From positions 248,001-312,000 of the forward strand of contig NZ_JAIUJY010000002.1 in NCBI RefSeq assembly GCF_020166105.1: 64,000 bases of DNA, given 5' to 3'. The DNA comes from Blastococcus sp. LR1 (lineage in GTDB: Bacteria > Actinomycetota > Actinomycetes > Mycobacteriales > Geodermatophilaceae). The translations under genes were made by a program, and so were the position numbers. Positions 2,747 to 41,130 of this stretch are shown one piece after another; the first letter of the stretch is position 1; each line of letters opens with the position of its first letter. The notes beneath the pieces were generated by a model, which saw only the letters and a program-made list of their open reading frames with translations, was not told the origin of the DNA and searched no databases.

Positions 2747-2823
2747 TGATCAGGTGGGCTGATCACTAGGCGTCCTGGCTCACCGTCGATGGTGAGCCAG
2801 GACGCTCCATGGTGAGCCAGGAC
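2747..2823. repeat. Left boundary repeat of the AbiEi/DUF559 cassette
   Basis: From outside in: a palindrome TGATCAG-N5-CTGATCA (2747-2765), then a perfect 13-bp hairpin GTCCTGGCTCACC-N6-GGTGAGCCAGGAC (2772-2803), a 7-base spacer, and a further copy GGTGAGCCAGGAC (2811-2823). The same units occur on the other side of the gene in mirror-image order with the same 7-base spacer (3902-3980). The layout looks like a terminal inverted repeat made of REP-like modules. A double-sided terminator is an alternative reading, but it would not require the extra half copies. Confidence 0.85.
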
Positions 2824-2837
2824 GGCGGCGCGCCGGC

Positions 2838-3836
2838 TCAGGCCGCCTCGGATTCCGATCCCGGCTCCGCGGTCGGCACGGCGCGGAACTGCCGCTGTCC
2901 CACGTACGGCGCGGCCAACAGCGACCGGATCCGCGCGACCTTGGCGGCCCACCCCGCACCGAGGTCCTGGTTGCCGACACGGACCACGCGAGCGCCCGTC
3001 TCTCGAAGCCGGTCCTCCCGCCGCTTCTCCTGCCAGAGCACTTCACCGGGCAACAGGCCGTTCCGGGGATCCAGGTACTTCACCTGCCCGTCGAACTCCA
3101 CCGCCACCGCCGCCTCGGCGTACCAGGCGTCCACTCGGCCCACGAAGCCGGCGTCGTCGTAGATGTCCACCTGCAGCTCGGGGCGCGGGAGGCCAGCAGC
3201 CAGCAGCGCCAGCCGGCCCCGAGTCTCCAGCGGGGACTCCGCTCGCCCATCGCTCAGCTGGAGTGCGCGAGCAGCCCCGGCGATCCCGACGCGGTGGCTG
3301 CCGGACAGGACAGCGCGTCGGATCGCGGCCCGCCCGATCTTCCGTTCCTGCATCGCAGCGTCCATCGCGACGACGCTGTCGACGAACGACCACTCGCGCG
3401 CGCAGTCCACGAGGGTGCGCCCGGTCGACGTCGCCCGGAATCCCGTCCACGGGACGAGGTCCTCGTCCGGCAGTGCCGCACGCGCAACGCGGTAGCCCCG
3501 ACCGCGACGCCACTGGTCGACGGCGGTGACGCGCACCTCGACGGGCTGCGCGCGTGGAATCACGAGCCCGTGCAGCTGGGCAGCCGACGCGTGGCTCAGC
3601 ACCGGCCCGGGGCCGAGGCTCAGGAGCACCGCGAGGGCGTCGATCAGATGCCGTGACCGAGCATCTGCTGCGACGACGTCGCCCGACGCGATGTAGACGC
3701 CCTTGCGGAGGCGGATCCAGCGGCGGGTTCTCAGCTCGGAGCGGATGTCGTCGACGAGATAGCCGACGCCGAGCGCCTCCTGGCTGGTGAACACCCCGAG
3801 GCGAGTATCGGCGATGGCACGAAGCTCCGGATGCAT
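2838..3836 (-). CDS. AbiEi-like N-terminal domain / DUF559-type C-terminal domain protein
   Basis: 332 aa. The N-terminal part (FTSQEALGVGYLVDDIRSEL, RTRRWIRLRKGVYI) matches the winged-helix domain shared with AbiEi-type antitoxins. The middle part (VLSHASAAQLHGL; RTLVDCAREWSFVDSVVAMDAAM) is typical of this actinobacterial family. The C-terminal part (VAVEFDGQVKY ... EKRREDRLRETGARVVRVGNQDL) resembles DUF559/Vsr-like restriction-endonuclease folds, with E, D and K placed as in PD-(D/E)XK nucleases. No toxin partner is adjacent. The gene is the only one inside a mirror-image repeat cassette (2747-3980). A paralogue lies at 40204-41130. Nuclease activity is inference; orphan antitoxin is the alternative. 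Confidence 0.8.
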   Translation of the reverse strand: MHPELRAIADTRLGVFTSQEALGVGYLVDDIRSELRTRRWIRLRKGVYIASGDVVAADARSRHLIDALAVLLSLGPGPVLSHASAAQLHGLVIPRAQPVEVRVTAVDQWRRGRGYRVARAALPDEDLVPWTGFRATSTGRTLVDCAREWSFVDSVVAMDAAMQERKIGRAAIRRAVLSGSHRVGIAGAARALQLSDGRAESPLETRGRLALLAAGLPRPELQVDIYDDAGFVGRVDAWYAEAAVAVEFDGQVKYLDPRNGLLPGEVLWQEKRREDRLRETGARVVRVGNQDLGAGWAAKVARIRSLLAAPYVGQRQFRAVPTAEPGSESEAA

Positions 3837-3901
3837 CCGGAAAGTGTGGCCATCTCCACCCGCCGGCTGGGCGAATGCGGCGGTTCCTGTGGACGAGCAC
3901 C

Positions 3902-3980
3902 GTCCTGGCTCACCATGCGGCGTCCTGGCTCACCGTCGATGGTGAGCCAGGACCCCTGTTGATCAGGAGACCTGATCAAC
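3902..3980. repeat. Right boundary repeat of the AbiEi/DUF559 cassette
   Basis: Mirror image of the left boundary: GTCCTGGCTCACC (3902-3914), a 7-base spacer, the hairpin GTCCTGGCTCACC-N6-GGTGAGCCAGGAC (3922-3953), then an outer palindrome GTTGATCAGG-AGA-CCTGATCAAC (3958-3980). The hairpin loop GTCGAT is identical to that on the left. The order and spacing are those expected if the whole interval 2747-3980 were a unit with inverted termini. Confidence 0.85.
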
Positions 3981-3988
3981 AACAGGGG
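3953..3988 (-). terminator. Probable terminator of the sigma-like gene, overlapping the cassette end
   Basis: The arms CCCCTGTT (3953-3960) and AACAGGGG (3981-3988) enclose the GATCAGG/CCTGATC palindrome and form a long stem. It lies 4 bases beyond the stop codon of the minus-strand sigma-like gene, the usual place for an intrinsic terminator. No clear U-tract follows. Confidence 0.5.
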
Positions 3989-40203: not shown

Positions 40204-41130
40204 ATGTCCGAGCCGCCGGTTCCCGTCCCCGTCATCCTCCGCCGCGACGCGCTGGCCGACGGCTGGGACGACGACGAGCTGGCGCGAACGGTCCGCGCGG
40301 GCGGGCTCGTCCGGGTGCGGCGGGGCGCCTACGCAGAGGACGCCGCCACCGGCGTCCATCAGCACGCTCTGCTGGTCCGGGCCACGGTGCCCCAGCTGCG
40401 ACGGACCGCCGTGGTCAGCCACCAGTCGGCCGCCGTGCTCCTCGGACTGCCGCTGTGGAACGTCCCCCTCGACCGGGTGCACGTGACCCGCCCGCCCGGG
40501 ACCTCGACTGCGCGCACGGCCGTGCTCTGCGGCCACGTCGCCCGCCTGCGCGACGACGAGGTGGTCCAGGTGGCGGGCGTGGCGGTGACCGATGCCGTGC
40601 GCACCGTCCTCGACCTCGCACGCTCGCTGCCCCACGAGACGGCGGTGGTCGCGATCGACGCGGCGCTCCATCAGGGACTCGTGACGCACGAGACCCTCCG
40701 CGCCCGGCTGTTCGACGTCGTCGGCTCCCCCGGCAGCCGCGCCGCCGCCCGGGCGATCGCCTTCGCGGACGCGCGCAGCGAGAGCGTCGGCGAATCACGG
40801 AGCAGGGTCGTCCTCGCCCGCTGGAAGCTGCCGGTGCCCGAGCTGCAGTTCGAGGTCCGCTCGCCGGCCGGCCTGCTGGTGGCACGCACGGACTTCGCCT
40901 GGCCGGAGGACCGGCTCGTCGGCGAGTTCGACGGGCGGGTGAAGTACGGCCGCCTGCGCCGCCCCGGGGAGTCCGCTGGTGACGCCGTCCACCGGGAGAA
41001 GCTCCGCGAGGACGCCATCCGAGACGAGAGGTGGGGCGTGCTGCGCTGGGGGTGGGCCGACCTGGAGACGCCGCACCGCCTCGCCGCCAAGGTCCGGCGC
41101 GCGCACGAGCGGGCCCGGCGGCCGACGTGA
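40204..41130 (+). CDS. AbiEi-like / DUF559-type protein, second copy
   Basis: 308 aa from the ATG at 40204. Same layout as the gene at 2838-3836: AbiEi-type winged helix (DDDELARTVRAGGLVRVRRG), middle part (VSHQSAAVLLGLPL; VRTVLDLARSLPHETAVVAI), and a C-terminal DUF559-like part (LVGEFDGRVKYGRL ... EKLREDAIRDERWGVLRWGW) with the E-x-D ... E-K spacing of a nuclease fold. No toxin gene is adjacent. The flanks lack the GTCCTGGCTCACC repeats, so it is not in the same kind of cassette. The 198 bases upstream contain only imperfect repeats. Confidence 0.78.
   Translation: MSEPPVPVPVILRRDALADGWDDDELARTVRAGGLVRVRRGAYAEDAATGVHQHALLVRATVPQLRRTAVVSHQSAAVLLGLPLWNVPLDRVHVTRPPGTSTARTAVLCGHVARLRDDEVVQVAGVAVTDAVRTVLDLARSLPHETAVVAIDAALHQGLVTHETLRARLFDVVGSPGSRAAARAIAFADARSESVGESRSRVVLARWKLPVPELQFEVRSPAGLLVARTDFAWPEDRLVGEFDGRVKYGRLRRPGESAGDAVHREKLREDAIRDERWGVLRWGWADLETPHRLAAKVRRAHERARRPT

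Follow-up and report, generated by a model that had tools for sequence, protein, structure and literature searches.

A nuclease gene between mirrored palindromic repeats in Blastococcus, a probable gene-bearing member of a REP-like system

Repetitive extragenic palindromic (REP) sequences flank the genes of REP-associated tyrosine transposases (RAYTs), with one REP group per RAYT (PMC3116915), and, in the part of the literature that was accessible to searching, no dedicated enzymes other than tyrosine transposases (RAYTs and their relatives) are named for REP-like palindromes. The CGTC REPs, whose stems have complementary A/T residues at the first two positions, are apparently devoid of a dedicated transposase (PMC3733652). 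Three further lines of work are relevant here: AbiEi and Rv2827c bind inverted repeats, through which AbiEi autoregulates (PMC7319586); the EDxHD homing endonuclease family takes in a DUF559 gene (PMC9403480); and the Caulobacter DUF559 protein VsrA has been connected with DNA damage, a role in mismatch repair being predicted for it (PMC12907096). Here, we describe a cassette of Blastococcus sp. LR1 in which a gene for a 332-aa protein lies between mirrored arrays of short palindromic repeats. It is contained in a window of 64,000 nt, the whole stretch that was analysed (C2:248001-312000 of the 4.02-Mb genome, G000), and coordinates are positions in that window unless a contig is given. The interval is probably the gene-bearing member of a REP-like system whose dedicated enzyme would be an AbiEi-Vsr/DUF559-type nuclease, with cutting and repair as the means by which the repeats spread or are homogenised.

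Over positions 2748-3977 the cassette reads A-7-B-6-b-7-b / gene / B-7-B-6-b-7-A, where A denotes a palindrome-like unit of 17 nt (GATCAGnnnnnCTGATC), B a 13-nt unit (GTCCTGGCTCACC), b the reverse complement of B, and the figures are spacings in nucleotides. Its features are as follows.

2748..2764, A unit, a 17-nt imperfect palindrome (GATCAGGTGGGCTGATC), left outer end
2772..2803, left B-6-b hairpin (GTCCTGGCTCACC GTCGAT GGTGAGCCAGGAC), with B at 2772-2784 and b at 2791-2803
2811..2823, minus strand, additional inner b copy, 7 nt past the left hairpin
2838..3836, minus strand, gene for the 332-aa protein
3887..3896, minus strand, TCGTCCACAG, a motif that we take to resemble a DnaA box, 60 nt 5' of the start codon
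3902..3914, plus strand, additional inner B copy
3922..3953, right B-6-b hairpin, with B at 3922-3934 and b at 3941-3953
3961..3977, A unit (GATCAGGAGACCTGATC), right outer end

The mirror layout of palindrome, hairpin, half copy, gene, half copy, hairpin and palindrome, which an earlier note on this DNA had described, is confirmed by these unit coordinates and by inverted arms of 82 nt (2744-2825 and 3900-3981) that are 87% complementary, and the folding of each cassette end beats all 200 shuffles apiece (z -6.1 and -8.4). The same note had taken the loop and the spacer to be identical on the two sides in inverted order, of which only a part stands: the loop GTCGAT is the same on the plus strand of both sides, but inverted order gives ATCGAC and hence no inverted identity, and the 7-nt spacers are equal in length but differ in letters (GCTCCAT versus ATGCGGC, 5 of 7 alike when inverted). 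The tetranucleotides GTAG and CTAC are absent from 2741-2830 and 3895-3985. Two other candidate descriptions were set aside: an outward stem extension of A as conserved pairing, for its weak signal, and membership of a known RNA family, the three matches each lying under the gathering score and being taken as chance.

Copies of the unit are dispersed through the genome, B being present in 31 exact copies against 2 for a reversed-pattern control, and the 13-base unit is not special to the cassette, since only six of these copies lie inside it and the remaining 25 are found at 19 other sites. Apart from one lone 13-mer within a gene (L006) and one site that was left out, these sites could be parsed with at most three mismatches per B unit and two per A unit, and all 17 parsed sites read A-7-B-6-b-7-(A or b) with every spacing exact, seven being A-B-b-A and ten starting A-B-b-b. 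B units are spaced 19-20 bp apart. With the cassette counted in, 18 of 19 loci are intergenic beside a gene 3' end, genes at these 19 loci having been called by a simple custom codon-usage caller. Most of the B arms listed in G000 start with CGTC (36/40), the other four starting with GGTC, a form common among congeners. The A/B elements are short, palindromic, dispersed and extragenic, as REP-type sequences are; they lie beside unrelated genes, yet in the same rigid array, and so do not fit the plain terminators without mirror arrangement that the earlier note had considered as a refutation. As a separate observation, L020 of this genome and L083 of another species share 735 bp at 100% identity, each beside repeat sites.

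The numbers and types of these repeats follow the gene. In a sample of 23 Blastococcus genomes, with flank type assigned by reading each locus, homologues of the 332-aa protein (E ≤ 1e-50) are present in 22, and the unit on their flanks varies at two bases, being either GG (GTCCTGGCTCACC) or CC (GTCCTCCCTCACC). Where a GG-flanked gene is present (seven genomes), exact GG units number 17-59 (median 33), compared with 0-32 (median 2) in the remaining 16; where a CC-flanked gene is present (nine genomes), CC units number 21-55 (median 30), compared with 0-18 (median 1) in the remaining 14. Forward matches of the A unit number 9-42 (median 24) in the 15 genomes that have a gene of one or both types, against 0-17 (median 5) in the eight that have neither. 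One-sided Mann-Whitney p-values, with kinship ignored, are 2e-4 for GG, 4e-5 for CC and 1e-4 for A, or 7e-4, 1e-4 and 2e-4, respectively, once the cassette's own copies are subtracted. G008 has one GG-flanked and one CC-flanked gene, together with 27 GG and 21 CC units; in G022 the gene lies at the end of a contig and seems to have a shifted frame. In Geodermatophilus, three genomes with GG-flanked genes hold 47, 34 and 46 GG units, and of the other ten searched nine hold 0-2 and G. aquaeductus holds 28, the gene fetched from it belonging to another clade. The pairing of nuclease gene and palindrome is real, specific and co-varying. A further candidate, the 'clade 3' repeat GTCGCCGTCCTCGCG, was rejected as slightly enriched at most, with 10 matches in G004, 11 in G009 and 0-8 in the other 21 genomes.

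The type is also kept within single elements. Among 63 distinct hairpins that fit a search pattern with the two bases left free, the arms match in 58 (0.44 expected under arm independence) and GG is combined with CC in none, and among 38 B-b-b triplets there is no GG/CC mix and one AC/GG mix, with the third copy like its neighbour in 34, all of these tallies counting sequences and not independent events. Since the unpaired third copy keeps its type, recognition of double-stranded DNA is favoured over a hairpin-only role. In addition, B units number six in a stretch of G032 (G032:C19:68806-68917), and five of these follow one another in tandem with an exact 20-bp spacing, which suggests local growth of an array.

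Comparison of orthologous sites reveals presence, absence and exchange. A cassette lies beside a sigma-factor-like gene at one and the same site in G000, G002, G008, G013 and G016, with GG-type flanks in the first three and CC-type flanks in the last two (partly degenerate in G016), and in the protein tree these five genes form one clade (99/94) in which the CC pair is sister to the GG trio. Because the same-site genes form one clade, both flanks would have switched type together while the gene was kept, be it from GG to CC or from CC to GG. Solo elements differ likewise: L013 (G000, GG) and L092 (G008, CC) occupy one intergenic site with order and orientation alike, and L018 (G000) and L077 (G011) have an identical left A unit with GG and CC hairpins, respectively. 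The sigma-like gene is present in 23/23 genomes, its downstream flank being readable in 22 (G010 ends 68 nt past the gene), and the A/B cassette follows it in five of these 22; in G015 and G003, as read from their sequences, the sigma and propeller genes adjoin with no nuclease gene between them. The gene is thus not found without repeats at this locus in all relatives, an outcome that the earlier note had named as fatal to its proposal, and the empty sites and further copies of the unit, gene-flanking or alone, that it had suggested looking for do exist. For instance, a second cassette site is occupied in G009, G019, G020 and G022, at which G000 has only a solo A-B-b-A (L003). Typing of neighbouring genes gives four cassette neighbourhoods common to several genomes and at least one seen once (L123). 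One of the four is common to Geodermatophilus, Modestobacter and a Jatrophihabitans metagenome-assembled genome (MAG), and there too the flanking unit differs, a GG-type unit versus GTGGGCACCTACC, although these genes are not firmly grouped in the tree.

Other genes and other hairpins occupy some of the same sites. At a site between convergent genes where G000 carries A-B-b-A, G011 has an unrelated hairpin with the core GGGGCCAAAATGGCCATTTTGGCCCC, within flanks that are 90% and 97% identical. The sigma-propeller site of G011 (L098) contains another gene, a 304-codon frame with a GGGGCCAAAATGGCCATTTTGGCCCC-core hairpin on both sides and TTGTCCACAG upstream; that of G006 (L117) contains a third gene, a 318-codon frame bordered by a GATCTGCACAC hairpin on one side and by at least half a hairpin of this kind on the opposite side; and that of G015 (L099) holds the GATCTGCACAC hairpin alone. 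Both frames match AbiEi models (E 5e-11 for G011 and 4e-17 for G006) and pass the DUF559 cut-off, with 23.8 and 37.2 bits against 20.6. Their repeats are dispersed but sparse, with one copy of GGCCAAAATGGCC in a 396-kb sample of G011 and five half-copies of GAGATCTGCACAC, including two complete hairpins, in a 400-kb sample of G006. Since G011 and G006 hold other AbiEi-DUF559 genes with other hairpins, one intergenic site has been used by several nuclease-palindrome pairs.

As regards the encoded protein, residues ~1-196 form an AbiEi-like N-terminal part by sequence profile and predicted fold, the AbiEi profiles of a defence library matching at E 4e-21, and residues ~196-312 are predicted to adopt a Vsr/EDxHD-type nuclease fold. 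D236, E247 and D249 are invariant in 29/29 aligned homologues, and K253 is found in at least 90%. The earlier note had assigned the C-terminus a DUF559/Vsr-like nuclease fold, of which the Vsr/EDxHD fold is upheld by structure prediction, but Pfam DUF559 (PF04480) leaves the protein unmatched at E ≤ 1 and the gene is not among the four places listed for this family; because the family does not reach the gene, the nuclease assignment rests on the predicted fold. None of the transposase Pfam families matches at E ≤ 1, and the predicted fold is not that of a Y1 HUH tyrosine transposase; in the fold-comparison table, a family missing from the list is not thereby excluded. The direct neighbours of the gene match sigma-factor and beta-propeller families. 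Upstream, NNNTCCACA is found within 200 nt of 69/77 homologues, and motifs of the TTGTCCACAG type lie mostly ~60 nt 5' of the start codon, the others being near -50, -69, -78, -87 and -110. Judged by this motif, the gene may be under the control of DnaA. Two other nuclease genes of the same genome may be mentioned: a distant homologue at window ~40231-41121 on the plus strand (L034), for which no flanking inverted repeat was detected, and a DUF559-type gene (L036/L228, C2:374350-375177) with a different hairpin, TGTGCGCAGATCGTGGTGAT, on both sides.

For a broader view, 80 homologue loci were collected from named genomes, 75 of them with enough flank, and compared with 574 same-locus shifted controls. 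The inverted repeat across the gene exceeds the 99th control percentile (16.0) in 54/75 loci and the control maximum (18.5) in 48/75, the passing loci including Blastococcus, Geodermatophilus, Modestobacter, Trujillonella, Kribbella, Rhodococcus (1 of 6) and two MAG groups. At some loci a direct match outscores the inverted one, because hairpins match either way. Stand-alone DUF559 genes on plasmid records, retrieved with a query sequence and examined in 22 of 44 records, lie between inverted repeats that score above the maximum (16.5) of 165 controls in 10/22, the other 12 not exceeding it. These ten come from Deinococcus (4), Azospirillum (2), Sinorhizobium, Qipengyuania, Picosynechococcus and Pseudanabaena, in three other phyla. 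Direct repeats beside two such genes (L233, L238) stay within the direct-repeat controls, and a tie of DUF559 genes to CGTC repeats was discarded, a CGTC(A/T)(A/T) hairpin lying near the gene in just 1/22 plasmid loci. Stand-alone DUF559 genes were also seen inside pathways, between paaD and paaZ in Deinococcus psychrotolerans (L240) and between sufB and sufC in Sphingomonas (L244).

Under the proposal that the cassette carries the enzyme gene of a REP-like system, the AbiEi part would bind the 13-bp B units, by analogy with studied AbiEi proteins, whose targets are inverted repeats of double-stranded DNA. The Vsr-like part would nick or cut at these units, and repair from other copies would spread the short elements and keep them alike, comparable to homing endonuclease-driven conversion. 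The solo elements A-B-b-A and A-B-b-b would be non-autonomous partners, and the whole cassette might rarely move to a new intergenic site, or be lost and leave a solo element behind.

Several points weigh against this proposal. Binding, cleavage, movement and repair-driven spread are steps that we infer and did not observe; 21/75 homologue loci fail the flanking inverted-repeat test, and a paralogue in the own genome (L032) is without a flanking repeat pair. The p-values given above overstate independence, because the genomes are related. Units without a detected cognate gene are found in G005 (32 GG, 17 CC), G014 (16 GG), G004 (13 GG, 7 CC), G011 (11 CC) and G021 (8 GG), and G019 holds 18 CC units, yet its sole gene is GG-flanked; relics of lost genes, which are possible, would account for such units, for example in G005, G014 and G019. 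The tested repeat has five copies in one Modestobacter genome, four of them at the gene, and four sites in one Kribbella genome, two of them at the gene; since the tested repeat is scarce elsewhere in these two genomes, strong dispersal is a trait of some lineages.

Among other explanations, the one that survives best, although we regard it as unlikely, is that the repeats are binding sites of a regulator or chromosome-organising protein, with the gene's own copies serving autoregulation, no movement or homogenisation, and a nuclease part engaged in Vsr-kind repair. The autoregulation of AbiEi proteins through inverted repeats (PMC7319586), the link of Caulobacter VsrA to DNA damage and its predicted role in mismatch repair (PMC12907096), the 19-20 bp spacing and the lone third unit of B-b-b, which shares its neighbour's two variable bases in 34/38 cases though it lacks a hairpin partner, would all suit such a protein; autoregulation, however, needs neither copies past the 3' end of the gene nor mirrored A units, and gain and loss explain better than fixed operators why cassettes and solo elements are present at some orthologous sites and absent from others. 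A defence or addiction module, in which the nuclease would attack DNA by its repeat content or an AbiE-type antitoxin would have its toxin elsewhere, is improbable: the match to defence-library profiles speaks for it, but the C-terminal part is predicted to be a nuclease and no AbiEii-like toxin gene (nucleotidyltransferase) directly adjoins, the neighbours being of sigma-factor and beta-propeller families (no search was made for a toxin gene further away). Least likely of all are ordinary 3' hairpins, acting as bidirectional terminators and flanking the gene by chance, since, for all that the elements lie near stop codons, often between convergent genes, and that a relative carries a different hairpin at the same site, a consensus scan gave no terminator with a T-run at either of the two elements in the window, the gene is followed by the repeats in both number and type, 54/75 loci have a flanking pair above the 99% same-locus control level, and both flanks differ jointly between species at one locus.

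A broader proposal, to which we give even chances, is that Vsr/DUF559-fold nucleases, alone or fused to AbiEi, constitute a second and widespread class of REP-associated enzymes, independent of HUH transposases, each lineage spreading and converting its own palindrome by cutting and repair and competing with other nuclease-palindrome pairs for the same intergenic sites. Many orphan palindromic repeats of bacteria might have their missing partners in such nucleases. If this is true, REP-like palindromes, which are common in bacteria, gain a second kind of partner in small nucleases with co-differing palindromes, a domain family of unknown function gains a function, and one protein with a 13-bp site becomes a directly testable system for the persistence and likeness of short repeats. 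Novelty is provisional, no link between DUF559 and dispersed palindromic repeats having been met in the accessible literature, to which subscription journals and bioRxiv were mostly external.

When compared with known systems, the elements resemble the CGTC-tagged repeats, which are said apparently to lack a dedicated transposase (PMC3733652), as dispersed hairpins. The foot of the B arms is CGTC in 36/40 of those listed in G000 and GGTC in the other four and in several congeners; unlike in the CGTC-tagged repeats, the stem runs CTGG after CGTC with no A/T start. EDxHD/Vsr-like homing endonucleases such as I-Bth0305I differ in that the present gene is free-standing and intergenic, with dispersed cognate repeats, and has a DNA-binding part of AbiEi type; no surrounding intron or intein was noticed. 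The N-terminal part is like the AbiEi antitoxins (S. agalactiae AbiEi, Rv2827c) by profile and fold, and those bind inverted repeats; unlike them, it has no directly adjoining toxin gene, is fused to a nuclease, and has repeats dispersed genome-wide. Finally, the system behaves like REP, but by its enzyme it falls outside the REP/RAYT group: the enzyme is predicted to be of AbiEi + Vsr/DUF559 type and not a Y1 HUH transposase, the elements in the window have no GTAG, and their array is made of two unrelated modules, A and B. The REP/RAYT-like layout with a different enzyme, as the earlier note had put it, is supported by mirror repeats in several genera and by numbers that follow the gene's repeat type. 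As in REP/REPIN-RAYT systems (REPtrons), short, palindromic, extragenic and dispersed repeats form inverted pairs, flank their own enzyme gene on both sides and, with the exceptions given above, follow the enzyme in type.
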